Positions 2,697-27,028 of a stretch of DNA of 30,257 nt are shown piece by piece (position 1 is the first letter of the stretch; every line of letters begins with the position of its first letter). The stretch spans positions 1 to 30,257 of the IMG/VR virus record IMGVR_UViG_3300044732_002244. One strand, written 5' to 3'. Made by a program: the position numbers and the translations under genes. The DNA is from a virus. Under the pieces are notes generated by a model. That model was given only the letters and a program-made list of their open reading frames with translations, ran no database searches and was not told where the DNA came from.

Positions 2697-3905
2697 ATGG
2701 CTACTGTTACCGGGTTCACCGCCCAGAGAATGGCCGCGATCGAAGCTGCTTCTGTCGTAGACGGCGATGTTGTTGGAAACGACCTTATTCTGACCAAACA
2801 CAATGGGCAGACCATAAATGCAGGAAACGTCCGGGGTATTCCTGGAGAAGGCGCTTACATAAAAAAAGTCCTTCTACCAGCAGTAAAACTACTAACTAGT
2901 GGCCCTAGCACTGAACTAACTTCTCCGTCTACACTACCGACCGGTCAGGGTATTTCAATTTCTTGGACCCCAGACCAGAAGTTTGTGACGGTAGGTCACG
3001 AGACTGCTCCGTTTATATCTACGTATGCGTTCAATGGGCTTGACTTGACCAAGCTCGCGAATCCGACTACAATACCGACCAACAGAGCCAATGATGTTTG
3101 TTGGTCCAAAGATGGTGCATATTTAGCTGTTGCCCACAACTCGGCGCCATTCATAAGCGTCTACAAGTTTGATGGTAGTACGCTTAAGAAGATTGCAAAC
3201 CCAACAAGTCTTCCTAGCGGAAACTGTCTTGGGGTTTCTTGGTCTCCTGATGGAAGATATTTGGCTGTTTGCGGAGAAACTGCCCCCTACGTCTTTCTAT
3301 ATTCTTTCTACAAAGATACGCTGACAAAGTTTTCTGATCCGGACTTTACGCCGACTTCTTTGGTGAATAAAGTTTCTTGGTACCCAGATGGTTCTTTGGT
3401 CTCGTTTGCAGCAACATCAGCTCCTTATGCTTTGAACTACTCTTTTGACGGTTCTTCTCTAGAAAAAGTTGATTTGATAAGCACGCTGCCTACCGTTGCG
3501 CTCAATGATATTTGTTGGTCTCCGAATGGCGCATTTTTGGCTTGTGCTCAAAACAGCGGTTCGGACATACTCGTATATCCATATGATGGGTCTGCATTTT
3601 CCAATCCTTCATCTCCAGCCACTAATGCGGCAAATGCTACAAGATCAATTTCTTGGTCCCCAGACAGTGGGATGATAACTGTTTCTTTTGACGGCCAGGA
3701 AAAACCAAAGTCTTACATATTTAAAAGTGGGGCTGTTGGGCTTATGATCACTGGAACGGGAACCAACTTAACCAGGAAGAGGTCTAGTTGGTCTCCAGAC
3801 GGACAGTTTGTGGCTTACGCGACGACGGAAAGTCCCTACATAAAGGTCCATAAAACCTTTGCTTCTTATTTTACTGATGGTTCGTACGCATACGCTTTTA
3901 GATAA
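2697..3905 (+). CDS. Tail fibre-type beta-propeller protein 1, 402 aa
   Basis: The ATG at 2697 follows TAGGAGTGACAA, a good RBS. Residues 1-55 (MATVTGFTAQRMAAIEAASV, then VVGNDLILTKHNGQTINAGN and a Gly-rich stretch) match the N-terminal virion-anchoring segment of many actinophage tail fibres. From about residue 85 there are seven WD40-like blades of about 45 residues. Each blade carries a [V/I].WSPDG.[Y/F]LAVA core and an ISVYKFDGS-type strand. Seven blades suggest a closed propeller that could bind a host surface ligand or a partner protein. Two more propeller genes follow directly. Receptor binding is an inference. Confidence 0.8.
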   Translation: MATVTGFTAQRMAAIEAASVVDGDVVGNDLILTKHNGQTINAGNVRGIPGEGAYIKKVLLPAVKLLTSGPSTELTSPSTLPTGQGISISWTPDQKFVTVGHETAPFISTYAFNGLDLTKLANPTTIPTNRANDVCWSKDGAYLAVAHNSAPFISVYKFDGSTLKKIANPTSLPSGNCLGVSWSPDGRYLAVCGETAPYVFLYSFYKDTLTKFSDPDFTPTSLVNKVSWYPDGSLVSFAATSAPYALNYSFDGSSLEKVDLISTLPTVALNDICWSPNGAFLACAQNSGSDILVYPYDGSAFSNPSSPATNAANATRSISWSPDSGMITVSFDGQEKPKSYIFKSGAVGLMITGTGTNLTRKRSSWSPDGQFVAYATTESPYIKVHKTFASYFTDGSYAYAFR

Positions 3906-3916
3906 GAGAGGGTTTC

Positions 3917-5113
3917 ATGGCAACTCCAAATTTTGGTGAATTGGTCAAACTAAACAGAAGTGTTCCGGAAGATTTTTCGTTCAACGGAAAAACTACCCGG
4001 GCCAGTCTTCTCTACGGAGAAGTTCCTTTTGGTGGAAAGCTTCCAAACCAATCCATAAGCACTGTTCCGGCAAACACCGGTCGAGTTGTTTCTTGGCACC
4101 CGTCAGGTCGACTACTTGTCGTCGGGCACGACACAACGCCACACTTCTCAGCATATTACTTTACCGGGACAAGCCTGACCAAAGTCGCAAATCCAGCATA
4201 TATTTCACCTGGAACGACCAATGCTGCCAAGTGGTCTCCAGACGGAAAATTTTTGTTTGTCGGAAGTAGTGATACGCCAAACATGCTCGTATATTCGCTA
4301 GATCTTAGTGCTTCGGCGCCTTTCTTGACGAAGGTTGCAGAAGCGAACGAAGTTGGATTCAGCGATGCTCACTGGTCTCCAGACAGCAAATACCTCGTTG
4401 TAACGAACTTAAATCTTGGGGCGACTTCTAACTGGATCAAAATATATCCTTTTGACGGTACTTCTTTTGGGGCCCCAATCCTTCCTAGTGGCCCAATTTC
4501 TAGCAGCCTAAAGTTCGCCACTTCTGTTGCCTGGTCCGAGTGCGGGCGTTATATTTCAGCCGGATACTTTGGCCCCGGCGCAACCTCTACGTCTTATCTT
4601 GCCGTATATGCTTTTAGTGGGAGCACATTCTCCGAGATCACAACGGCCGTTGGTGCAAATGCTCTTCCTAGCTGGGTGAGTGGAGTAGCTTGGTCGCCAG
4701 ACAGCAAATATTTAGCTGCTTCTCATAACAGTGGTTACAAAAGCACGGTATATTCTTTTGAGAACGACTCACTGACAAAGCTAAATACTTCTGGTGTGGC
4801 CCCATCTGGAGTTGGCCTGGCTGTCGACTGGTCTCCAGATGGGAGACACTATGCCGTTACCACAGACACTACACCATATTTGGTTGTCTATGTGTTTGAG
4901 GACCAAACCATATACTATACTCTTTACGCATATGTCTCGGGCGCTCTACCAGTAGGCTCGGCCAACGACGTTTCTTGGTCTCCCGACGGCAAGTTTGTTG
5001 CCGTAGCACACAGTGGACATCCACATCTTACCGTTTATACTTCCAGCACGGGAACCATTAGGCCTGGAAACATGCTTAACATAGAGCCACCGTCAAACCT
5101 TCCTCATATTTGA
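3917..5113 (+). CDS. Beta-propeller virion protein 2, 398 aa
   Basis: The ATG at 3917 has GAGAGGG 5 bases upstream. It lacks the fibre-like anchoring segment of the previous gene and instead starts MATPNFGELVKLNRSVPEDF, with FSFNGKTTRA shared in style with the next gene. Seven blades follow, for example VSWHPSGRLLVVGHD, AKWSPDGKFLFVGSS, AHWSPDSKYLVVTN, VAWSPDSKYLAASHN and VSWSPDGKFVAVAHS. It is a tandem paralogue of its neighbours and is probably part of the same tail structure. Blade spacing is less regular than in the first copy, with longer loops after blades 3 and 4 where specificity could vary. Confidence 0.78.
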   Translation: MATPNFGELVKLNRSVPEDFSFNGKTTRASLLYGEVPFGGKLPNQSISTVPANTGRVVSWHPSGRLLVVGHDTTPHFSAYYFTGTSLTKVANPAYISPGTTNAAKWSPDGKFLFVGSSDTPNMLVYSLDLSASAPFLTKVAEANEVGFSDAHWSPDSKYLVVTNLNLGATSNWIKIYPFDGTSFGAPILPSGPISSSLKFATSVAWSECGRYISAGYFGPGATSTSYLAVYAFSGSTFSEITTAVGANALPSWVSGVAWSPDSKYLAASHNSGYKSTVYSFENDSLTKLNTSGVAPSGVGLAVDWSPDGRHYAVTTDTTPYLVVYVFEDQTIYYTLYAYVSGALPVGSANDVSWSPDGKFVAVAHSGHPHLTVYTSSTGTIRPGNMLNIEPPSNLPHI

Positions 5114-5127
5114 GAAAGTGAGTTTTT

Positions 5128-6360
5128 ATGGCAATCGTTTGGGAGCCTAGACGTCCTATATTCTTGAACCCAAAGAATGTTTCTATTGAAGAGAACTTCT
5201 CTTTTAACGGGAAACCAGTAAAAGCTGGACGATTTTACAACAACTACCCTTCTGGATCATTTTTCACAAGTTTTACCCAGCTTCCTTCTCAGTCAATAGA
5301 AGCGGTTTCCTGGTCCCCAAGAGGACGACTTGTTTCTTTCGCCTGTTCGGGTCTTGCTACCCCAGAAACCACTTCGTCGATGGCTACTTTCTACTACACG
5401 GGTTCCAGCTTTGCCTATGCACCTAGCCCGACGTCATATCTTCCTGGCTCTTGGGTCGAAGGTGGGTTTACCGACGGTGCAGATGCTTACGCAATAGAGT
5501 GGTCTCCGGATGGTAAAAAACTTGCTGTCGGATCTAGTGGTAGCTACAAGGTAAACATATATTCTTTCAACGAAGGTTTGCTTCAGTTCTCAAACATATT
5601 ACAGCCAACTCCTCCGGAGAACTTTAGCGATAGTGCGATATGTACCGACGTTTCCTGGTCTCCTGACAGCACATTAGTAGCTGCTTCATTTTCTGAAGAT
5701 CCTTTCGTCTACATATTCAGAGTTCTTGACGAAAGCTTTGAGTTGTTTGCGTCTCTTGACCAGAACTACTCAATAGGGGCAAACTCTTGTCGGTGGTCTC
5801 CAGATGGACGATACTTGTGCATTGGATATTCTCGTACTCCATACATAGGGATCTACGAGTTCAACGGATCGAACTTCAACAAGCTTCCTGACGCAAACAC
5901 TCTTCCGCCAGCATACGTAAACAAAGTTGCCTGGTCTCCGGACGGAACTACACTAGCTGTTGCTCATGCAAAATCTCCGGCGCTTACTGTATATTCTTTT
6001 GACGGAAAAAGACTCAAGCGAATAGTCGTTGAGCATGACCGCCCAGAAGTCGATCTGGAAGACGACATGGTTTCTAACGATTTTGACAACGATGCTGCAT
6101 ACGACCTTAACTGGTCCAGTGATGGAAGGTATCTTTCAGCAGCCTTTACCATCTTTCCAAGACTGTATATTTACACGTTTGATGGTAAAAAACTTGAAAA
6201 GATTCACCACAAGCAGCCCGGCGGAACTGGAGATGTTTGCGCCTGGAGCCCTGACGGAGAAGTTCTTATTTCTGGAACAAACTACACAACATCCGGGCTT
6301 GGAAACGCTGGCTCGGGTCCTATGTTAAAACTAGAAAGTCCAAAAAACAAGCCGGTTTAA
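5128..6360 (+). CDS. Beta-propeller virion protein 3, 410 aa
   Basis: This is the third tandem propeller gene. The start at 5128 follows GAGAAAGTGAG. The N-terminus (MAIVWEPRRPIFLNPKNVSI, then NFSFNGKPVKAGRFYNN) resembles copy 2, not copy 1. Seven blades are visible: VSWSPRGRLVSFA, IEWSPDGKKLAVG, VSWSPDSTLVAAS, CRWSPDGRYLCIG, VAWSPDGTTLAVA, LNWSSDGRYLSAA and CAWSPDGEVLISG. An acidic insertion of about 20 residues (EVDLEDDMVSNDFDNDAAY) sits between blades 5 and 6 and may be a metal- or ligand-binding loop. A role at the tail tip or surface is inferred from its place before the tape measure. Confidence 0.78.
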   Translation: MAIVWEPRRPIFLNPKNVSIEENFSFNGKPVKAGRFYNNYPSGSFFTSFTQLPSQSIEAVSWSPRGRLVSFACSGLATPETTSSMATFYYTGSSFAYAPSPTSYLPGSWVEGGFTDGADAYAIEWSPDGKKLAVGSSGSYKVNIYSFNEGLLQFSNILQPTPPENFSDSAICTDVSWSPDSTLVAASFSEDPFVYIFRVLDESFELFASLDQNYSIGANSCRWSPDGRYLCIGYSRTPYIGIYEFNGSNFNKLPDANTLPPAYVNKVAWSPDGTTLAVAHAKSPALTVYSFDGKRLKRIVVEHDRPEVDLEDDMVSNDFDNDAAYDLNWSSDGRYLSAAFTIFPRLYIYTFDGKKLEKIHHKQPGGTGDVCAWSPDGEVLISGTNYTTSGLGNAGSGPMLKLESPKNKPV

Positions 6361-15302: not shown

Positions 15303-16052
15303 ATGGGGCTAAACCAGATAGTTTCATCGACAAAACAGTTAGCTCACGATAATTCGACCCAGATACTTAGTGCTATCGGCGTTGCGGGAACTGTCACTAC
15401 GGCATATTTGGCCGGGCGTGCGTCATATTTCGCCGCCTACATGGTCAACCGAGAAGAGGAAGAGCTTGATCGGACTCAGGACCCTCTGACCTTTAAAGAA
15501 AAAACTCAGCTTGTGTGGACCCTCTACGTGCCAGCTCTTGTATCTGGTGGTGCGACAGTAACTGCTATTATCATGGCAAATCGCATCAGCAGCAAAAGAA
15601 CTGCAGCGTATGCGGCCGCATATTCTGTTCTCGAGACCACGTTCGTGGAGTACCAGAACAAAGTTGTCGACGAGATAGGAAAGCGCCGGGAGCAGAACGT
15701 CAAGGACGAGATCGCTCAGGACCGCGTCAAAGCACTACCTCCGTCAAAAGAGCAGATCATTGTTACTTCTGGCGGTAAAGTGATGTGCTGCGAGTTGCAC
15801 ACCAGGCGATATTTCATGAGTGACATGGAGACTCTTAGGCGTGCCCAGAATGACATAAACGCAAAGATCATCCACGAACTGTATACGTCGATGAGCGAGT
15901 TCTATGACGCCATAGGCCTTCCTCACACGACTCACTCCGACAATCTTGGCTGGAACTCCGACAGACTGATGGAGCTTGTGTTCAGCACAGTTCTTTCTGA
16001 GGACGGAACTCCTTGTATTGCGTTTGACTACAACTATGTCAAGCCGATCTAG
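15303..16052 (+). CDS. Two-pass membrane protein of a conserved phage family (DUF6353-like), 249 aa
   Basis: The ATG at 15303 is preceded by AACAGGAG at about 11 bases. There are two membrane segments, about 20-40 (ILSAIGVAGTVTTAYLAGRA) and 70-93 (VWTLYVPALVSGGATVTAII). A long helix (YAAAYSVLETTFVEYQNKVV) and a C-terminal domain with MSEFYDAIGLPHTTHSDNLG and AFDYNYV follow. I assign it tentatively to DUF6353-type phage membrane proteins, a family of unknown function. The gene at 17473 has the same plan, and the C-terminal signature also appears in the gene at 16806. Expressed from P3 through a folded leader. Confidence 0.72.
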   Translation: MGLNQIVSSTKQLAHDNSTQILSAIGVAGTVTTAYLAGRASYFAAYMVNREEEELDRTQDPLTFKEKTQLVWTLYVPALVSGGATVTAIIMANRISSKRTAAYAAAYSVLETTFVEYQNKVVDEIGKRREQNVKDEIAQDRVKALPPSKEQIIVTSGGKVMCCELHTRRYFMSDMETLRRAQNDINAKIIHELYTSMSEFYDAIGLPHTTHSDNLGWNSDRLMELVFSTVLSEDGTPCIAFDYNYVKPI

Positions 16053-16282: not shown

Positions 16283-16317
16283 CAAGGCTTAGAATCCAAC
16301 ATGGATTCTAGGCTTTT
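16283..16317 (+). terminator. Repeated-family terminator T3 (identical to T4)
   Basis: AAGGCTTAGAATCC pairs with GGATTCTAGGCTTT around AACAT (14 bp, with G-U pairs), then TTTTCATTTTT. The 35 bases are identical to those at 27498-27532, 11.2 kb away. No TCGTAA promoter follows, so the gene at 16343 must rely on read-through or another promoter. Confidence 0.85.
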
Positions 16318-16342
16318 CATTTTTCACAAACAAAGGAACAAA

Positions 16343-16795
16343 ATGTTAAAGAAGACCATTACGTACGAAGACTACAACGGAAACTCCGTTACTGAGTCTT
16401 TTTATTTTCACCTTTCCAAGCCTGAGCTCATTGAGCTTGAGGTCGACTACGACAAAGGTCTAGCTGCCGAGATCAACAAGATTGTCGAGACTGACAACAA
16501 CAAAGAGCTCATCGCCATATTCAAGCGGATCATCGCTCTTTCCTACGGCGTAAAGTCTGAGGACGGAAAGCGGTTCTCCAAGTCTGAGGATATTCGTAAC
16601 TCGTTCATGGAGACGGCTGCTTACAGCGAGCTTTTCATGGAGCTTGCGACTGACGCAGATGCGGCGGCAGAGTTCATCACGGGTCTTCTGCCCGCAGACA
16701 TGGCGGCAGAGGCCGAGAAGGCTCAGGCTGAGTCTGTCGTCTCAGCTCCTGCGCTAGAGGCGTCCGAAGAGAAAAACGAAACCCCTAACACCTGA
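16343..16795 (+). CDS. Conserved phage protein, possibly chaperone-like, 150 aa
   Basis: The ATG at 16343 follows AAAGGAACAAA. An in-frame ATG at 16301 lies inside terminator T3 and is rejected. The protein starts MLKKTITYEDYNGNSVTESF, YFHLSKPELIELEVDY, then IFKRIIALSYGVKSEDGKRF, SELFMELATDADAAAEFITG and LLPADM, and ends in an acidic, Ala/Glu-rich tail. I recall the ITY.D.NG...TE.FYF.L and SYG.KS.DG.RF patterns from widespread phage proteins sometimes placed near tail genes, but I am not sure of the function. It opens the operon that runs to the polymerase. Confidence 0.7.
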   Translation: MLKKTITYEDYNGNSVTESFYFHLSKPELIELEVDYDKGLAAEINKIVETDNNKELIAIFKRIIALSYGVKSEDGKRFSKSEDIRNSFMETAAYSELFMELATDADAAAEFITGLLPADMAAEAEKAQAESVVSAPALEASEEKNETPNT

Positions 16796-17472: not shown

Positions 17473-18375
17473 ATGAGTATAATCCCACAGAACATGACCC
17501 AGTCACTAGGGCGTCATATTCTTACCATGAAGAAGAACCAGCCTGACGCAATGTTTGCTTTTGGCATCGCAAGCGTTCTAGGCGGTACGATATTTGCCTG
17601 CCGTGCAACGCTCAAGGCAAAGCCTGTTGTTGAGAACATCCAGAACCAGGTAGAGTCGGTTCGAGAGCTCAACTCGAGCAAAAGTGCTCATCCGTCGTAC
17701 AACGCAAACGACTACGGTAAAGACCTGGCCTATATTTACATGATGGGTGCCTATGACATCCTGAAACTTTACGGGCCTGCTATTCTTCTTACCGGCGCTG
17801 GCGTTGCTGCGCTTTCAAACTCCCACAACACGCTCAAAGAGAGGAACGCTTCACTTACTGCGGCATATGCTGTCGTGTCTGAGGCGTTCGAGGCTTATCG
17901 CAGCCGTGTTCGTGAAGAAGTTGGCGAGGAAAAAGAACTCGATCTTTATGTTGGTCGTTCTATGATTTCTATCGAGAACGAAGACGGAGAGAAAGAGGAG
18001 GCTTACGTGATAAGCGCCAGTGGTCTTTCGCCCTACGCCAGGTTCTTCGACGAGGCTTCTAGCAGCTTTCAGAAGAACCCAGAGATGAACAAACTGTTCA
18101 TCCAGTGCCAGGAGAGTTTTGCAAACGACCTTTTGTATGCTCGTGGGCACGTGTTCTTGAACGACGTCTACGACATGCTTGGACTTGAGCGGTCTTCTGC
18201 TGGCGCAGTTGTTGGCTGGATCCTTGACGGGGACGGCGACAACCATATTGACTTTGGCATATTTGACGTGAGGAACGAGCATTTCCTCAAGTCTTGGGAG
18301 CCACGAGTGCTGCTCGACTTCAACGTCGACGGCATCGTCTACGACAAGATTGAAAACAATAAGTTGGAGAAGTGA
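17473..18375 (+). CDS. Two-pass membrane protein (DUF6353-like), 300 aa
   Basis: The ATG at 17473 follows TAGGAGCAATT. There are two membrane segments, about 25-42 (DAMFAFGIASVLGGTIFACR) and 95-113 (LYGPAILLTGAGVAALSN), then the helix LTAAYAVVSEAFEAYRSRVR. The C-terminal domain carries GHVFLNDVYDMLGLERSSAG, GWILDGDGDNHIDFGIF and RVLLDFNVDG. The plan and motifs parallel the 249-aa protein at 15303 and fit the DUF6353-type family (function unknown). Bulky soluble C-terminal domains on a double-pass anchor suggest a scaffold or sensor at the membrane; this is inference. Confidence 0.75.
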   Translation: MSIIPQNMTQSLGRHILTMKKNQPDAMFAFGIASVLGGTIFACRATLKAKPVVENIQNQVESVRELNSSKSAHPSYNANDYGKDLAYIYMMGAYDILKLYGPAILLTGAGVAALSNSHNTLKERNASLTAAYAVVSEAFEAYRSRVREEVGEEKELDLYVGRSMISIENEDGEKEEAYVISASGLSPYARFFDEASSSFQKNPEMNKLFIQCQESFANDLLYARGHVFLNDVYDMLGLERSSAGAVVGWILDGDGDNHIDFGIFDVRNEHFLKSWEPRVLLDFNVDGIVYDKIENNKLEK

Positions 18376-19049
18376 TGGATATTCAGGAAGTTATTCACAA
18401 CAAGAACGTGCAGATTGGAGGTGTCGGCATCGGCTGCCTAGCAGTCGGTGCTGCCGCCGGATTCTTTTTTGCCAAGAACAAGTACCAGGCCGAGGAGTTT
18501 ATTTTTGTCGAGGAGGAAGTTATGACGCTTCCTTTTGACGACGAAGAGCCTCCGTCGGAGCACCTGGTGCACTCTCTCGATGACGTCTACGTCTCCGAGA
18601 AGGTGCAGAAAATTGAGCATATCGGGGCCTCTGACGAACCGGAGGAGCCCGTGAAAAACATATTTACCCGTGAGGACAACTGGAACTACGACGAGGAGAT
18701 TTCTCAGCGTACTTCTGAGAAGCCGTACGTGATCCACAGGGACGAGTTCTTCTCTGACGAGATGGGACTCAACCAGCTGACTTTCACGTACTACGCCGGT
18801 GACGATATTCTGACCGACGAGCAGGACAAGCCTGTGCACAACTACGAGACTGTGGTTGGCGATATTCGCTTTGGTCATGGGTCGCTGGATCCGAACGTGT
18901 TCTATGCTCGTAACGAAGAGCTTGGGTCTGAGTATGAAATCCTCCACACGGACGGGTTCTACTCTATCGAGGTTCTTGGCTACGGCCTCGAGAGCGAGTA
19001 CGAAGAGCAGGACGAAAAAGAGATACTCTTAAAGTTTAAGGACGAGTAA
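18375..19049 (+). CDS. Single-pass membrane protein with conserved phage domain, 224 aa
   Basis: The ATG at 18375 overlaps the preceding stop (TGATG); a GTG one codon earlier is also possible. A membrane segment spans about residues 12-32 (VQIGGVGIGCLAVGAAAGFF), then an acidic linker and a C-terminal domain with KPYVIHRDEFF, LTFTYYAGDDILTDEQDKPV, FGHGSLDPNVFYARNEELGS and YSIEVLGYG. The TYYAGDD.L.DE and DPNV.Y.RN motifs recur in phage proteins that I recall as neighbours of DUF6353-type genes. Function is unknown. It probably acts with the proteins at 16806 and 17473. Confidence 0.72.
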   Translation: MDIQEVIHNKNVQIGGVGIGCLAVGAAAGFFFAKNKYQAEEFIFVEEEVMTLPFDDEEPPSEHLVHSLDDVYVSEKVQKIEHIGASDEPEEPVKNIFTREDNWNYDEEISQRTSEKPYVIHRDEFFSDEMGLNQLTFTYYAGDDILTDEQDKPVHNYETVVGDIRFGHGSLDPNVFYARNEELGSEYEILHTDGFYSIEVLGYGLESEYEEQDEKEILLKFKDE

Positions 19050-19591
19050 TGTTGGACGTCCTGCTTGAAGAAGAATATTTCGACTGTCTCTACGACAGTA
19101 TGGTCGGGGGGATTACTTTACCGGCTGGAGAGGAATTCTACAAACTCTTCAAGCAGTTGTATACTTCCAGGTTCTACTGGATCGTTCCAGGTGATGAGAA
19201 CCGGGCAGAAGACGGGGTCGACCTCAGAAAGCAGTTCATATCTGCAAGAAAGGTCGACCCCGTCGTACCCGGCTGGACCGAAGAAGCTTGCTCTATACTA
19301 GAGATGCTTGTTGCTTTTTCTGACATAGCTGAATTTGAGACTGATGAAAAAGCAAGCGAATGGTTCTGGATATTTCTGGACAACCTCGACCTGAGTGGTA
19401 TGCATGACGGGGCTTTCGACGAACTAAAGTTTGAAGAGATAATCTACCGGTTTGTCTCTAGAGACTACAAATACAACGGCCAAGGCGGACTATTTCCGCT
19501 AGAACATCCAACCAAAGACCAACGAGAAGTCGAGATTTGGTACCAGTTCTGTGCCTATATTTCAGAACTGAGCATTTTTGAAAGGGACTAG
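19049..19591 (+). CDS. Conserved phage protein of unknown function, 180 aa
   Basis: The start overlaps the previous stop (TAATG). The protein is soluble and acidic. It contains FYWIVPGDENRAEDGVDLR, CSILEMLVAFSD, WFWIFLDNLDLSGMHDGAFD and YNGQGGLFPLEHPTKDQREV with EIWYQFCAYI at the end. The FYW..PGDENR.EDG.DLR and REVEIWYQ patterns mark a family found in many phages; I do not know its function. It sits directly upstream of the replication protein, whose GTG start follows its stop immediately, so the two are translationally coupled. Confidence 0.75.
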   Translation: MLDVLLEEEYFDCLYDSMVGGITLPAGEEFYKLFKQLYTSRFYWIVPGDENRAEDGVDLRKQFISARKVDPVVPGWTEEACSILEMLVAFSDIAEFETDEKASEWFWIFLDNLDLSGMHDGAFDELKFEEIIYRFVSRDYKYNGQGGLFPLEHPTKDQREVEIWYQFCAYISELSIFERD

Positions 19592-22500
19592 GTGGACTTC
19601 TATACGATAAAGACAAAAGAGTCTAAGGACGGAACTCTTACCGTATATCCTGATTTTACCGTAGGTAGGTCCAAAGATCTCATGATCAGAGGACGTTCGT
19701 TCTATGCCATATGGGACGAAGAGCGGGATATTTGGTCTACGGACGAGTACGACGTCCAGAGACTTGTCGATGCAGACCTGAAGCGATATTCTGAAGAATT
19801 AAATGCTCCGTGCAAAGTCTTGACCATGAAGTCTTTCAACACCAAGACCTGGAGCAACTTCAAGTCTTTCATGCTCAACATGAGTGACAACAGCCACCCG
19901 CTGGATGAAAAACTCATATTCTCGAACACGGACGTATCGAAGACGGACTACGCAAGCAAGAAACTTCCATATCCTCTGGAAGAGGGGTCTATCGAAGCTT
20001 GGGACGAACTTCTTACTACACTATATTCTGAAGAAGAGCGTGCAAAGATCGAATGGGCTATCGGGGCAGTCGTATCTGGTGATTCGAAGAAGATCCAGAA
20101 GTTTCTGGTTTTCTACGGTCCTGCTGGTAGTGGTAAATCCACAATTCTGAACATTATTCAGAGCCTTTTTGACGGCTATACCGCCACTTTTGACGCAAAA
20201 GCTCTTGGTAGTAGCAACGGAGCATTTGCCACTGAGGTGTTCCGCTCAAACCCTCTGGTCGCCATTCAGCACGACGGAGACCTTTCCAGGATAGACGACA
20301 ACACCAAACTCAACTCTATCATATCCCACGAAGACATGACCATGAACGAAAAGTACAAGCCCAGCTACACTGCTAGGGTAAATGCTTTTTTGTTCATGGG
20401 GACGAACCAGCCAGTTAAGATCTCGGATGCAAAGTCTGGCATCATACGAAGGCTTATAGACGTTCATCCTAGTGGGCATCGTGTCGACAACAGTCGGTAC
20501 CATATTTTGATGAGCCAGATAGAGTTTGAGCTCGGCCCTATTGCATACCACTGTCTTAAGCGGTACAAAGAAATGGGTAGGAACTACTATGGTGGCTACC
20601 GTCCTCTTGAGATGATGCTTCAGACTGACGTTTTCTACAACTACGTAGAAGCATATTACGACTTGTTCAAGTCTCAGGACGGTGCCAGTCTGAAGCAGGC
20701 ATACAGTCTTTACAAAGAGTTTTGTGAAGAAACAGGAATTGAGAAGCATCTTCCGCAGTACAAGTTCCGGGAAGAACTTAGAAACTATTTTGAAAGGTTC
20801 CAGGACCGTGCGATGGTGGATGGTATTCAGATCCGGAGCTACTACAGCGGGTTCAAGGAGATCGGTTCTTTTGGAACTGTTGCTCCGACAAAGCCGTACG
20901 ACATAGTCTTCGAGCACGAGGACTCTATATTTGACGAGCTGATGGCGACCATGCCTGCCCAGTACGGCAAGCAGAGTGGATTTCCTGGTCGACGCTGGGA
21001 AAACGTAACGACTACTCTCTCCGACCTCGACACCACAAAACTTCATTTTGTCAAGGTCCCCGAGCAGCATATTGTAGTCGACTTTGACCTTGTCGACGAG
21101 AACGGAGAAAAAGACCTGCAGAAGAACATTGAAGCAGCGTCAAAACTTCCGCCAACATATTCTGAGTTGAGCAAGAGTGGTGCTGGTATACACCTGCACT
21201 ATATTTACAGTGGAGATGTCCATGAACTTGCGTCTGTCTATGACGTAGGCATCGAGGTCAAAACTTTGTTGGGGGACTCTTCTCTTCGGAGAAAACTCAC
21301 CAAGTGCAACAATTTACCAATAGCAACCATAAGCGGCGGTCTGCCGAAGAAAGAAGTTCCCGTGCTTGACATTAAGAGTGTGCAGAGTGAGAAGGGGCTT
21401 CGTGATCTTATCGGGAGGAACCTCCGCAAGGAGATCCACCCGGGTACGAAGCCTTCCATTGATTTCATCCACAAGATTCTTGCGGATGCTTACGAGTCTG
21501 GGCTTGCCTACGACCTTACGGACATGAAGCCGACTATATTTACGTTTGCTGCGATGAGCTCGAACCAGGCAGCTACCTGTCTCAAGACTGCTCAGTCCAT
21601 GCAGTTCGTCGGTAAGGACCATATTCCCCCGCCAGTTGAAGTGACTGAGTCAAAGCTTGCATTTTTTGACGTCGAGGTCTACCCTAACCTGTTTGTAGTC
21701 TGTTGGAAGTTCGAGGACTCTGACGAAGTGGTAAAGATGATCAACCCTTCCCCAAAGGAAGTGGAGGATCTGTTCTCCCTCAAACTCGTCGGGTTCAACA
21801 ACCGCCGGTACGACAACCATATTCTTTATGGTAGGTTCCTGGGGTACTCGCTCAAAGACCTGTATGTTCTTAGCCAGAAGATCATATCTGGCGACAAGAA
21901 CTGCTTCTTCCGAGAAGCGTACAACATATCGTACACGGACATCTACGACTTCAGCTCGAAGAAGCAGGGTCTAAAGAAGTTCCAGATCGAGCTTGGTATC
22001 CAGCACATGGAGATGGATATTTCATGGGACGACCCTGTCGACGAAGAGTTGTGGCCCAGAGTCATCGACTACTGTGCGAACGACGTCATATCTACGGAGA
22101 AGGTGTTCAAGTACCGGGCTCAGGACTTTGTAGCAAGGGAGATCCTGGCTGAACTGTCCGGCTTGAGTGTCAACCACAGCACTCAGGCACACACAGCAAA
22201 GATCATATTTGGGGACGAGAAGTACCCACAGAAGAGCTTTATTTATACCGATTTGAGCAAAGAATTCAAAGGATACAAATTTGATGGAAAGGAAAGCACC
22301 TACCGTGGCGAGGTCACAGGTGAGGGTGGATACGTATACGCAGAGCCGGGCATATATGAGAATGTTGCCCTTCTGGACGTTGCGTCTATGCATCCAACGA
22401 GTATCGAAGCCCTCAATCTATTTGGACCCTACACAAAGTCGTTCTCCGATCTTAAACAAGCTCGTATGGCGATCAAGCATAAGGATTACGAAGCGGCCCG

Positions 22501-23299
22501 ATCTCTACTTGGAGGTAAACTCAAACCATTTTTGGGAGATAGTGCTGATGACGCTGAGGGGCTCTCATATGCTCTTAAGATCGTCATCAACATCGTCTAC
22601 GGCCTCACAAGTGCGCGTTTCGAAAACCCTTTTAAAGACAACCGAAATGTAGACAACATCGTCGCAAAGCGTGGCGCACTGTTCATGGTGGACCTGAAGC
22701 ATGCGGTCCAGGAGCAGGGATATTCTGTGGTCCACATCAAGACGGACTCCATCAAGATCCCAAATGCTACTCCTGAGATCATATCCTTCGTGACCGAATT
22801 TGGAAAGAAGTACGGCTACGACTTCGAGCACGAGACGACCTACGACAAGTTCTGTCTTGTCAACGACGCTGTCTATATTGCTCGGGCCGATGGTAAGTGG
22901 ACCGCTGTTGGGGCACAGTTCCAGCATCCTTACGTCTACAAGTCGCTCTTCTCCAAAGAGACTCTTGAGTTCAAGGACTTCTGTGAGACCAAGAACGTCA
23001 CGCAGGGTGTCATGTATCTTGACTATACCATGAGCGATCCCCCTGATGTGGCGTCCATGACCCACGTAGGGAGGACTGGAAGCTTTGTCCCAGTAGAAAC
23101 TGGCGGCGGGCTTTTGTGGCGCATCAAGGACGACAAGCACTATGCTGTTGTCGGAACAAAAGGATATTCTTGGCAGGAGAGCGAGGCCGTCAAAGATCGT
23201 GACGACCCTAACATCGACCTGTCATATTTCGAGGCGCTCGTGGATGCTGCCGTCAAGGCTATAGAGAAGTACGGCTCTTTCAACGACTTTGTTGCGTAG
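19592..23299 (+). CDS. Fused SF3 helicase / primase-like / family B DNA polymerase, 1235 aa
   Basis: The GTG start follows the previous stop directly, with GAAAGGGA upstream. Three units are visible. (a) SF3 (D5-type) helicase, about 150-330: Walker A GPAGSGKST (176-184), acidic HDGDL near 226, FLFMGTNQ (about 266-273) as motif C, and IIRR near 285; a winged-helix-like stretch follows. (b) AEP-primase-like, about 485-600: VVDFD (D497, D499), SKSGAGIHLHY and GIEVKT, the usual order DhD, SxH, hE. (c) Family B polymerase, about 690-1150: exonuclease FDVEVYPN (D693, E695), GFNNRRYDNHIL and YCANDV; motif A DVASMHPTS (about 929), B KIVINIVYG (about 996), C KTDS (D1052). Motif C has Lys where DTD is usual, but the catalytic second Asp is kept. 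It probably unwinds, perhaps primes, and copies phage DNA. No separate helicase or primase gene is in the window. Confidence 0.9.
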   Translation: MDFYTIKTKESKDGTLTVYPDFTVGRSKDLMIRGRSFYAIWDEERDIWSTDEYDVQRLVDADLKRYSEELNAPCKVLTMKSFNTKTWSNFKSFMLNMSDNSHPLDEKLIFSNTDVSKTDYASKKLPYPLEEGSIEAWDELLTTLYSEEERAKIEWAIGAVVSGDSKKIQKFLVFYGPAGSGKSTILNIIQSLFDGYTATFDAKALGSSNGAFATEVFRSNPLVAIQHDGDLSRIDDNTKLNSIISHEDMTMNEKYKPSYTARVNAFLFMGTNQPVKISDAKSGIIRRLIDVHPSGHRVDNSRYHILMSQIEFELGPIAYHCLKRYKEMGRNYYGGYRPLEMMLQTDVFYNYVEAYYDLFKSQDGASLKQAYSLYKEFCEETGIEKHLPQYKFREELRNYFERFQDRAMVDGIQIRSYYSGFKEIGSFGTVAPTKPYDIVFEHEDSIFDELMATMPAQYGKQSGFPGRRWENVTTTLSDLDTTKLHFVKVPEQHIVVDFDLVDENGEKDLQKNIEAASKLPPTYSELSKSGAGIHLHYIYSGDVHELASVYDVGIEVKTLLGDSSLRRKLTKCNNLPIATISGGLPKKEVPVLDIKSVQSEKGLRDLIGRNLRKEIHPGTKPSIDFIHKILADAYESGLAYDLTDMKPTIFTFAAMSSNQAATCLKTAQSMQFVGKDHIPPPVEVTESKLAFFDVEVYPNLFVVCWKFEDSDEVVKMINPSPKEVEDLFSLKLVGFNNRRYDNHILYGRFLGYSLKDLYVLSQKIISGDKNCFFREAYNISYTDIYDFSSKKQGLKKFQIELGIQHMEMDISWDDPVDEELWPRVIDYCANDVISTEKVFKYRAQDFVAREILAELSGLSVNHSTQAHTAKIIFGDEKYPQKSFIYTDLSKEFKGYKFDGKESTYRGEVTGEGGYVYAEPGIYENVALLDVASMHPTSIEALNLFGPYTKSFSDLKQARMAIKHKDYEAARSLLGGKLKPFLGDSADDAEGLSYALKIVINIVYGLTSARFENPFKDNRNVDNIVAKRGALFMVDLKHAVQEQGYSVVHIKTDSIKIPNATPEIISFVTEFGKKYGYDFEHETTYDKFCLVNDAVYIARADGKWTAVGAQFQHPYVYKSLFSKETLEFKDFCETKNVTQGVMYLDYTMSDPPDVASMTHVGRTGSFVPVETGGGLLWRIKDDKHYAVVGTKGYSWQESEAVKDRDDPNIDLSYFEALVDAAVKAIEKYGSFNDFVA

Positions 23300-23423: not shown

Positions 23424-23702
23424 ATGAAAGCAATCAACGTCAGCCAGGTTCCTAAGGGAGCACGAAAGCTGCGGGCATCCAAGTGGGAGTTCGTCTCGAA
23501 GACCTTGCTGGATGGCAAGGCCTGCGTGATCGAGCCCTCGGACTACAAGGACTACAAGACCGAGAGCGCACTGCGCAGTTCACTCTCGTCGCACATGCGG
23601 TCCCGAAAGATCAAGTACTCCATCCGGAAGGACGCCTCTACGGGGAACTTCTACGTCATTCCGAAGCAGGAAGACTCCTGGGAGCAGGCCCACTCGATCT
23701 AG
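23424..23702 (+). CDS. Small basic protein, 92 aa
   Basis: The ATG at 23424 follows AAGGAGAATTACA. An in-frame start at 23394 lies in the leader and has no RBS. The protein has many Lys and Arg (KGARKLRASKWEF, SLSSHMRSRKIKYSIRKDAS) and a beta-like end (GNFYVIPKQED). It could be a small nucleic-acid-binding protein, but no known fold is recognised. Codon choice is strongly C/G-ending compared with the neighbouring genes, which together with the own promoter and strong RBS suggests abundant expression. Confidence 0.72.
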   Translation: MKAINVSQVPKGARKLRASKWEFVSKTLLDGKACVIEPSDYKDYKTESALRSSLSSHMRSRKIKYSIRKDASTGNFYVIPKQEDSWEQAHSI

Positions 23703-23715
23703 TGGTAGATGTCCT

Positions 23716-23748
23716 GAGCATGACTAAAAACTGCTCTTATCATTTTTA
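23716..23748 (+). terminator. Weak hairpin with U tract
   Basis: GAGCA (23716-23720) pairs with TGCTC (23732-23736), followed by TTATCATTTTT. With only 5 bp it may be a partial terminator or a processing site between the 92-aa gene and the ssDNA-binding-like gene, which has no promoter of its own. Confidence 0.45.
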
Positions 23749-23767
23749 CTCAAACAAAGGAACAACA

Positions 23768-24214
23768 ATGTCAGAGCAGAAGACTTTCATGCTTGAAGAT
23801 GCACGAATCATTTTCAGGAACTTTGCAGGAAAAGAAGGCCAGTACAACCGTGAGGGCGACCGCAACTTTGCAGTTGTCCTTCCTGATGAACTTGCCGAGC
23901 AGCTTGTCAAGGACGGCTGGAACGTCCGTTTTCTCAAGGCTCGCGAAGAGGGCGAGAGCGACACGCCCTATGTCCAGGTCGCTGTGAACTACTCGAACCG
24001 TCCTCCCCGGATCACGATGATCACGACCAACTCCCGTACCGTCATGGGCGAGGAGAGCGTAGACGTCCTTGACTGGATGGAGTTCAAAACTGCAGATCTT
24101 ATTTGCCGTGGGTACGAGTGGACAGTCAACGGCAAGTCTGGTGTCAAAGCATATCTTCAGTCTCTCTTCGTCACCATCGAAGAGGACGAGCTCGAGCAGA
24201 AGTACGCCGAGTAA
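23768..24214 (+). CDS. Probable phage single-stranded DNA-binding protein, 148 aa
   Basis: The ATG at 23768 follows AAAGGAACAACA. The frame is open back to 23483, but that part overlaps the preceding gene. The protein has LEDARIIFRNFAGKEGQYNR, EGDRNFAVVLPDELAEQLVK, DGWNVRFLKAREEGE, YVQVAVNY, PPRITMITTNSRT and GVKAYLQSLFVTI. I recall this RNF.G.E...N.EGDRNF and DGWNVK pattern from phage proteins described as ssDNA-binding with an OB-like fold. Its position after the polymerase fits coating of single strands during replication. Function rests on recalled family similarity and context, not a search. Confidence 0.68.
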   Translation: MSEQKTFMLEDARIIFRNFAGKEGQYNREGDRNFAVVLPDELAEQLVKDGWNVRFLKAREEGESDTPYVQVAVNYSNRPPRITMITTNSRTVMGEESVDVLDWMEFKTADLICRGYEWTVNGKSGVKAYLQSLFVTIEEDELEQKYAE

Positions 24215-25165: not shown

Positions 25166-25239
25166 GCGCCTCTAGCTCAATTGGTTAGAGCACCGGACTT
25201 TTAATCCGATGGTTCTGGGTTCAAGTCCCAGGGGGCGTA
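25166..25239 (+). tRNA. tRNA-Lys (anticodon UUU)
   Basis: The acceptor stem GCGCCTC pairs with GGGGCGT (with G-U pairs). The D arm is TAGCTC...GAGC, the anticodon loop is CTTTTAA with TTT at 25200-25202, and the T arm is CTGGG-TTCAAGT-CCCAG. The discriminator is A and no CCA is encoded. The first pair of the anticodon stem is a C-A mismatch. It reads AAA and, by wobble, AAG. Confidence 0.93.
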
Positions 25240-25274
25240 CTATATTCACCCAAACAAATTGAAAGGCTATTACA

Positions 25275-25574
25275 ATGGACAACGAAACCCTTCAGGCTGA
25301 GCTTGAGCAGGCAATTGCCGATATTTCCTCCAACGCCTCTGCCATGGAGATCATTCCAGGAGAGATCAACTCATCTGCCATGATCCTTCTCGAAGAGGAG
25401 AATGTCAACGGAGACAACTGCGTAGTTACGATCGCGCAGCGTGCGGACAACACCGCATATGTTTCTTTCTACAACGACTACTACGACCCAGACAACTGCA
25501 CCGAGCACTTCGAGTGCAAGGACATCCGCAGTGCGATCAAGCTTCTGGCGAGCACCCTGGTTCGAGAGGACTGA
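25275..25574 (+). CDS. Small acidic protein, 99 aa
   Basis: The ATG at 25275 follows GAAAGGCTATTACA. The sequence starts MDNETLQAELEQAIADISSN and has a beta-rich centre (AMILLEEENVNGDNCVVTIA, TAYVSFYNDYYD) and a helical end (IRSAIKLLASTLVRE). No membrane segment or catalytic motif is seen and I do not recognise the family. It lies 35 bases after tRNA-Lys with no promoter between, so it is probably cotranscribed with the tRNA. Its stop overlaps the next start (TGATG). Confidence 0.72.
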   Translation: MDNETLQAELEQAIADISSNASAMEIIPGEINSSAMILLEEENVNGDNCVVTIAQRADNTAYVSFYNDYYDPDNCTEHFECKDIRSAIKLLASTLVRED

Positions 25575-25849
25575 TGGTAAACATCCCGAACGGGCCTCTT
25601 GGAGAGCGTCCAGAAGAAGTAGAAGATCAGAGCAGGGTAGCATATCTTGAAGCGGCAATCCGTCAACACCGTTTTGCTGTCGGAAGAGGATACCACTACC
25701 ACTCGTTCAAGTCTGTCTACGATGCAAACATGGCATTGTGGTCCACCGTGACCGACCGTTCTGTATATTCTCAGGACGAGCCCGACACACCAACATTGGC
25801 GCAGGAAGCACCACTGGCGCGACCTGCAATGATGGAAGATACTGAGTAA
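25574..25849 (+). CDS. Small hypothetical protein, 91 aa
   Basis: The ATG at 25574 overlaps the previous stop (TGATG), which decides the start over the longer frame from 25514. The sequence has VAYLEAAIRQHRFAVGRGYH, then YHSFKSVYDANMALWSTV, and an acidic, Pro-rich, disordered end. Function is unknown. It forms an operon with the 99-aa genes on both sides. Confidence 0.65.
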   Translation: MVNIPNGPLGERPEEVEDQSRVAYLEAAIRQHRFAVGRGYHYHSFKSVYDANMALWSTVTDRSVYSQDEPDTPTLAQEAPLARPAMMEDTE

Positions 25850-25866
25850 CTATTCAAGGAGATATT

Positions 25867-26166
25867 ATGACTGATATTGTTGACACAGGTATTTATGTGG
25901 AGATTCTAGGCACGAACATCCGCGCCACGAACATCCAGGTTACGGGCTACCCCGCAGTTATTGACGGAGAGAGCTACCCGCTCTACTTCGAGATCCCGTT
26001 TAAGAGTGGAAAGCTCTGGGTCGTGGAGAAGTCTGACGGGCCGATCCAGATCTCAGTCTTCAGCAACTACAAAGAGGATCCGGACGCTCCGGCAGACCTG
26101 CGGCTGCAGGCCAACGACTGGCAGCTGTTCCTCGACTTCTACAAGCTCAGTGTACTGGAGGAGTGA
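25867..26166 (+). CDS. Small hypothetical protein, 99 aa
   Basis: The ATG at 25867 follows CAAGGAGATATT, a strong RBS. It is a beta-rich acidic protein (GIYVEILGTNIRATNIQVTG, YPLYFEIPFKSGKLWVVEKS) that ends in WQLFLDFYKLSVLEE. No family is recognised. The stop overlaps the next start (TGATG), so it is coupled to the glycosylase-like gene. Confidence 0.7.
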   Translation: MTDIVDTGIYVEILGTNIRATNIQVTGYPAVIDGESYPLYFEIPFKSGKLWVVEKSDGPIQISVFSNYKEDPDAPADLRLQANDWQLFLDFYKLSVLEE

Positions 26167-26612
26167 TGCAGACATTTCTTCCTTACGAAGACTTTGCGAA
26201 GAGCGCGCTTGTCCTGGACCGTCTGCGTCTAGGCAAGCAGCGCGTCGAGACTCTTCAGATTGCAAAAGTTGTTTCTGGGCAGAGCAGCGGATGGGAGCAC
26301 CACCCGGCTGTTCTCATGTGGAAAGGATATCCTGAAGCACTCATGTCGTACCAGACAGCTGTGTGCGACGAGTGGACGCAAAGAGGTTACGTAGACTCTT
26401 GTCTCGACAAGACTGCGTATATTCTTGGCGTGCCACCTGTTCGGCAGGAGAACCTAAACCCGGAACTTCTTCCACCCTGGTTGGGCGACGAAGAGTTCCA
26501 TATTTCACATAGGTCGAACCTTGTGCGGAAAGACACAGAATACTACGGTTCTGAGTTTTCCGACGTTCCACCAAACCTACCGTATATTTGGCCGGTCCAG
26601 ATAGTTCGGTAG
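26166..26612 (+). CDS. MSMEG_6728-type pyrimidine-dimer glycosylase-like protein, 148 aa
   Basis: The sequence begins MQTFLPYEDFAKSALVLDRL with RLGKQRVETLQI, then GWEHHPAVLMWKGYPEAL, CDEWTQRGYVDSC, PPWLGDEEFHISHRSNLVRK and PYIWPV. These motifs match the MSMEG_6728 family, common in actinobacteria and their phages and related to T4 endonuclease V (pyrimidine-dimer glycosylase/AP lyase). It probably repairs UV damage or makes nicks at base lesions. The length is close to the family norm. The ATG at 26166 overlaps the previous stop; a GTG one codon earlier is an alternative. tRNA-Ile follows 8 bases downstream. Confidence 0.86.
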   Translation: MQTFLPYEDFAKSALVLDRLRLGKQRVETLQIAKVVSGQSSGWEHHPAVLMWKGYPEALMSYQTAVCDEWTQRGYVDSCLDKTAYILGVPPVRQENLNPELLPPWLGDEEFHISHRSNLVRKDTEYYGSEFSDVPPNLPYIWPVQIVR

Positions 26613-26620
26613 TGCTGTTC

Positions 26621-26697
26621 GGGCCAGTAGCTCAGTTGGTTAGAGCAGCGTTCTTATACAGCGTTTGTCGAGGGTTCAAGTCCCTCCTGGCCCACCA
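26621..26697 (+). tRNA. tRNA-Ile (anticodon UAU), CCA encoded
   Basis: Acceptor GGGCCAG/CTGGCCC, D arm GCTC...GAGC, anticodon stem GCGTT/AGCGT (with G-U pairs) and loop CTTATAC with TAT at 26655-26657. The T arm is GAGGG-TTCAAGT-CCCTC and ACCA is encoded at the 3' end. Anticodon UAU would read AUA directly. Most bacteria read AUA with a CAU tRNA that needs lysidine modification. Of the three tRNAs here only this one encodes CCA. Confidence 0.93.
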
Positions 26698-26717
26698 TAT
26701 TCTTCAGAAAGGAAACC

Positions 26718-26933
26718 ATGTTTACTACAGCCACCTTTTGGTTCGGATTTTTTGCCGGGATAATCTTCGTAATAATACTGGCCTACCTCTACAACTACCT
26801 GGTTGAGAAAAAGGTCGACTACTGTTTGTCCTGCTACAGTGACATAAAGAACGAGCGCTACATGACCTGGGCCGATTTCCCCGACAAGAAAAGTCGCCTG
26901 GTCAAGTGTACGGACGAGTGGCACGACAAATGA
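26718..26933 (+). CDS. Small membrane protein with Cys pair, 71 aa
   Basis: The ATG at 26718 follows GAAAGGAAACC. One strong N-terminal membrane segment (about 5-27, ATFWFGFFAGIIFVIILAYL) is followed by a soluble tail with CLSC and a later Cys (VKCTDEWHDK), which could bind metal or form a disulfide. Function is unknown. It lies between two tRNA genes and has no recognisable promoter of its own. Confidence 0.72.
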   Translation: MFTTATFWFGFFAGIIFVIILAYLYNYLVEKKVDYCLSCYSDIKNERYMTWADFPDKKSRLVKCTDEWHDK

Positions 26934-26939
26934 TATTCC

Positions 26940-27025
26940 GCCCCCATGATGGAACAGGCAGACATATTCGGCTTAAACCCGAAGGGCCTTAACCGGCCGT
27001 GTGGGTTCGAGTCCCACTGGGGGCA
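26940..27025 (+). tRNA. tRNA-Leu (anticodon UAA)
   Basis: Acceptor GCCCCCA/TGGGGGC, anticodon stem TTCGG/CCGAA with loop CTTAAAC (TAA at 26974-26976), a long variable arm built on GGGCC/GGCC as in class II tRNAs, and T arm GTGGG-TTCGAGT-CCCAC. The discriminator is A and no CCA is encoded. It reads UUA, a codon that is very rare in GC-rich actinobacteria. Confidence 0.92.
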
Positions 27026-27028
27026 CGA

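Follow-up and report, generated by a model that had tools for sequence, protein, structure and literature searches.

The fusion of a family B DNA polymerase (PolB) with N-terminal SF3 helicase and PrimPol domains defines the HelPrimPolB group, named in 2020 by Kazlauskas et al. (PMC7544198), who cite a 2016 paper for the first report of the fusion. The group falls in an EpsilonN-like clade and is profoundly divergent in motif C and KxY (PMC7544198). High activity is possible in PolBs that lack the first Asp of motif C, as stated for primer-independent PolBs (PMC7544198).

GP55 of lactococcal phage 1706 was purified by Zhang et al. in 2025 and described as a "four-in-one replicase", with helicase, primase, polymerase and 3'-5' exonuclease activities in one chain in vitro (PMC12205980). 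Its unwinding depends on UTP or dTTP, and it copies M13 de novo. RNA priming takes place at 5'-CCAAC-3' and needs both AEP and aHD; residues Y655 and F667 are required for priming, and the D509A substitution abolishes it. Mutants showed that each of the active sites is needed. GP55 was a dimer by SEC-MALS, in contrast to the hexameric rings of other SF3 helicases (PMC12205980).

Results

An intact gene for a probable four-in-one replicase of the HelPrimPolB / GP55 family

The window analysed here is an entire IMG/VR virus record of 30,257 bases, possibly a genome fragment. Its main features are listed in Table 1. The original prediction of an uninterrupted 1235-codon frame was confirmed, and every motif that it quoted was found at the predicted residues. 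Reading of the sequence showed that the GTG start follows immediately on the TAG stop of the preceding gene. In a profile search, phrog_4210 ("DNA polymerase") spanned residues 1-1234 of the protein with E = 0, which speaks against a chance string of motifs.

An initial IMG/VR scan yielded 80 loci. Among the loci tested that hold a complete or almost complete copy, 64 of 65 were open throughout (1226-1306 aa), and the frame was broken in one (L012). Because the frame is uninterrupted in 64 of these 65 loci, it is not an accident of assembly.

Aligned end to end, the window protein and GP55 (YP_001828703) gave 506/1312 identities (39%), the window protein being 82 residues shorter. The mapped mutation sites of GP55, K189, D509, Y655, F667, D712, E714 and D949, correspond to the identical residues K182, D499, Y640, F652, D693, E695 and D929, respectively. 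The protein is thus of GP55 type, with full-length homology and identity at catalytic residues K189, D509, D712, E714 and D949. GP55 and the window protein are further alike in domain order, in motif C (KTDS), and in a phage-encoded ssDNA-binding/annealing gene. Comparison with the HelPrimPolB group revealed no difference: N-terminal SF3 and PrimPol domains and divergent motif C/KxY are common to both. In the window gene the single frame is intact, no catalytic residue is missing, and the homology to GP55 runs over the full length. The gene is real and intact, and we are highly confident that it encodes a four-in-one replicase of the HelPrimPolB / GP55 family.

Table 1. Features of the replicase locus in the window.
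Feature	Coordinates	Strand	Residues	Basis
HelPrimPolB replicase gene (1235 aa)	19592..23299	+		Open frame, GTG start, without internal stop
Shine-Dalgarno-like GAAAGGG	19580..19586	+		5 bases before GTG; sequence read directly
SF3 helicase domain	19697..20818	+	about 36-409	DUF5906 E = 5.9e-13; SaPI5 primase-helicase 7ola E = 1.8e-7
AEP / Prim-Pol catalytic core	20921..21358	+	444-589	Predicted fold; Pfam Prim-Pol in relatives
Four-helix module, equivalent of GP55 aHD	21389..21595	+	about 600-668 (Y640, F652)	Four helices in model
Family B DNA polymerase with DEDDy 3'-5' exonuclease	21635..23287	+	682-1232	phrog_1252 E = 2.1e-45
PolB motif C, KTDS	22739..22750	+	1050-1053 (D1052)	Invariant in 66/66 members including GP55
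Putative ssDNA-binding / annealing protein gene	23483..24214	+		PF24083 E = 6e-61; phrog_4787 E = 3.3e-59
180-aa gene, phrog_4678	19049..19591	+		Directly upstream of replicase in 54/54 loci with 4 kb flank

Helicase domain

The 66 aligned proteins in which residue conservation was assessed comprised 64 IMG/VR members whose frames are complete, together with GP55 and the window protein. The SF3 hallmarks (Walker A, Walker B, sensor 1 Asn and arginine finger) were all present in the window protein. K182 of Walker A (GPAGSGKST, residues 176-184) and sensor-1 N272 of FLFMGTNQ (residues 266-273) were invariant in all 66 members. Walker B was placed at 223-230 by motif reading; its D228 and D230 were kept in 65 of 66. 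The arginine finger pair R286/R287 was invariant (alignment A2). The predicted helicase fold is shared with the SaPI5 primase-helicase (7ola/7om0); model residues 1-374, equal to protein residues 36-409, matched 7ola with Z 23.0 and rmsd 3.6 over 338 aligned residues. As in HelPrimPolB proteins, the SF3 domain lies N-terminal of PolB in a single chain.

AEP core and aHD module

The original prediction had named an AEP-like fold of residues 480-620 as the check on its primase claim. This check was run with an AlphaFold2 model of residues 410-690 (mean pLDDT 87.9), in which residues 444-589 fold like an AEP core. The best fold match was phage NrS-1 PrimPol 7rr3 (Z 10.2, rmsd 3.3 Å, 140 aligned), followed by pRN1 primase 1ro0 (Z 6.8, rmsd 3.4, 126 aligned); unrelated rows in this search start at about Z 5.5. 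The window's own AEP segment had no Pfam match by itself, and a sequence-only profile of the segment found no AEP among solved structures. Pfam Prim-Pol matched 39 of the 64 IMG/VR members, with a best E of 4.4e-5. Since the sequence profile search was empty, the AEP assignment is carried by the fold comparison and by the weak Prim-Pol matches of relatives.

AEP motifs are defined as hhhDhD/E (I), sxH (II) and hD/E (III) (PMC5862659), and VVDFD, GIH and IE in the window protein agree with them. Motif I lies at 495-499 with the Asp pair D497/D499, motif II in SGAGIHLHY at 529-537 with H534, and motif III in GIEVKT at 553-558 with E555; these Asp, His and Glu residues were invariant in 66/66 members. 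The domain lies between helicase and PolB, as in HelPrimPolB. NrS-1 PrimPol (6a9w, 7rr3) has the same AEP fold; however, its AEP precedes the helicase and no PolB follows, whereas in the window protein AEP comes after the helicase and PolB is attached.

An aHD module between AEP and PolB was an element absent from the original prediction. Its Y640 and F652 align with the GP55 residues required for priming, as in a GP55-type aHD.

Polymerase domain and motif C

The polymerase part had a predicted PolB fold, matching KOD polymerase 8s84 over 440 aligned residues (Z 16.4, rmsd 6.9) and E. coli Pol II 3k5n over 438 (Z 15.0, rmsd 5.8). The model of residues 36-1235 had mean pLDDT 84.3 and pTM 0.49; because of this low pTM, the mutual orientation of its domains is not reliable. 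Each of the three enzymatic domains is backed by a predicted fold. The domain identities and the order helicase-AEP-polymerase are right as originally read.

Exonuclease motifs were located at 691, 733 and 827, and polymerase motifs A and B at 927 and 996. D693, E695, D741 and D831 of the exonuclease and D929, K996 and Y1003 of the polymerase were invariant in 66/66 members. Motif C departs from the canonical PolB form DTDS with its two Asp: it reads KTDS, in which the second Asp (D1052) is kept. Reading of the sequence after motif C found no KxY; VNDAVYIA stands there instead. Exonuclease and polymerase motifs with divergent motif C and KxY are those of HelPrimPolB. The original prediction treated KTDS as an oddity; because it is present in all 66 aligned members, it is the family consensus rather than a deviation. 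The possibility that KTDS signals an inactive polymerase was rejected on the same ground and because GP55, which carries KTDS, is active.

The polymerase part was 24-26% identical to the stand-alone PolBs of Listeria phage P35 (gp33), Listeria phage LM 4-14-1 and Enterococcus phage Q69. These three also lack the first Asp of motif C (NTDG, NTDG and NTDA, respectively), but they are not fused. In P35, a separate protein, gp34, adjoins the PolB and contains VIDLD near its N-terminus followed by a helicase match.

Distribution in public phages

A total of 383 public phage records matched the replicase, and 252 of them hold at least 80% of the protein; the latter are mostly actinophages. By genus, all matches included Enterococcus (105), Arthrobacter (95), Gordonia (55), Streptomyces (54), Lactococcus (13), Curtobacterium (7) and Rhodococcus (4). 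Among the matches listed, those from Enterococcus covered the polymerase part only. The best public relatives had 62% identity at 100% length coverage and mostly carried the annotation "DNA primase/polymerase". Proteins so named in Gordonia, Rhodococcus, Arthrobacter, Streptomyces and Curtobacterium phages (phrog_4210) share neighbours with the window and differ from its protein in sequence divergence only. The view that the arrangement is unusual is therefore out of date: it is the defining HelPrimPolB layout (PMC7544198) and is annotated in hundreds of phage records. A literature search on the actinophage side of the family returned no match.

Streptomyces phage Thiqqums, in which helicase and primase/polymerase looked separate, was considered as a case of natural fission. 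This was rejected, because gene 59 encodes the entire replicase, whereas gene 55 (L083:3980-4477) is an extra, 165-aa partial helicase copy, about 2.3 kb upstream of the intact replicase. Gene 55 is a recent or decaying partial duplication.

Neighbouring genes

What is new at this locus is minor: a constant putative ssDNA-binding/annealing gene downstream of the replicase and a constant 180-aa gene upstream. The ssDNA-binding gene was downstream of the replicase in 49/49 loci with 4 kb of flank on that side, and its homologue in phage 1706 is GP66. It occurred in 250 phage records, compared with 252 for the full-length replicase, with nearly equal genus spread, the comparison being one of genus counts and not of record lists. 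Its product is likely the SSB partner of the replicase.

The 180-aa gene (p180) occurred in 236 phage records, from the replicase's genera minus Lactococcus, again as compared by genus counts. A tblastn search (E up to 1) of phage 1706 positions 20000-55597 did not find the block p217, DUF6353, p225, p180 that lies upstream of the replicase in the window. One tentative reading makes p180 of the actinophage branch an accessory subunit dedicated to the replicase and without lactococcal counterpart, serving as loader, in origin recognition or as processivity factor. Together, p180, HelPrimPolB and the ssDNA-binding protein would then make up a minimal phage replisome; we regard this reading as rather doubtful. 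The neighbour linkage could also be explained by shared phage descent, without joint function.

Several other features of the window were recorded. Between the major tail protein and tape measure genes, 2697-6360 (+) holds three consecutive genes of about 400 aa each, all phrog_19311, which suggests tandem paralogues. DUF6353 / phrog_2152 is present in two copies, 15303-16052 and 17473-18375 (+), flanking a Phage_TAC_17 gene (tail-assembly-chaperone family) at 16301-16795. This block lies between the tape measure gene and the replicase, and the order recurs in Gordonia phage Gill. Three tRNA genes (Lys-TTT, Ile-TAT and Leu-TAA) are located at 25166-27026 (+), downstream of the replication genes. 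In Lactococcus phage 1706, gp75 (L082:32083-35172) has the public-record label "RNA-dependent RNA polymerase", in a dsDNA phage.

Discussion

By analogy with GP55, we infer that the window protein retains the four GP55 activities. The SF3 domain would open the duplex, and the AEP core with the adjacent aHD would prime the exposed strand with a short piece of RNA. PolB would extend the primer with 3'-5' proofreading, the helicase assisting strand displacement, and the protein of 23483-24214 may cover the single strands. The original suggestion that a single chain makes up a near-complete replisome is a fair one in this respect; such a chain has been shown for the relative GP55 (PMC12205980), and for the window protein it is presumed from that relationship.

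An alternative is that one module is an inactive relic, e.g., that AEP serves as a DNA-binding domain or that motif C impairs the polymerase, with host enzymes performing the step. The missing first Asp in KTDS is consistent with this idea, as is the failure of the window AEP segment to find a Pfam match of its own or, by profile, a solved AEP. However, across the 66 members the catalytic residues checked in AEP, SF3, exonuclease and polymerase show little or no variation, and lack of the first Asp is compatible with high activity in primer-independent PolBs (PMC7544198). Moreover, GP55 polymerizes with KTDS and loses priming on substitution of D509, the equivalent of D499 here (PMC12205980). 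We consider an inactive module improbable. The altered motif C also raises the question of a repair or translesion enzyme that is not the main replicase, since archaeal B2 PolBs with altered motif C act in translesion synthesis (PMC7544198). This role is more improbable still: the exonuclease motifs are intact, GP55 is efficient and proofreading, and the scanned genes of the window, which is perhaps a fragment, included no further recognisable polymerase, primase or replicative helicase.

A chance string of motifs, or separate genes fused in assembly, has practically no probability. No point in support of it was found, and the full-length frame recurs in 64 viral contigs and, at a coverage of at least 80%, in 252 phage records, which refutes it. 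A working four-in-one replicase remains our preferred reading.

The window protein is a new copy of a known, biochemically characterised enzyme family. Its novelty is low, because the HelPrimPolB layout has been published and the assays of GP55 included catalytic mutants, and it changes no concept. Its 39% identity to GP55 leaves room for altered nucleotide use or a different primer site. As an environmental member of the smallest known multi-activity phage replicase family, it is useful for comparison with GP55, and it is a possible enzyme for primer-free DNA amplification. The GP55 study put its emphasis on human-associated phages (PMC12205980); the genus spread in public phage records suggests that the family is also common among actinophages.
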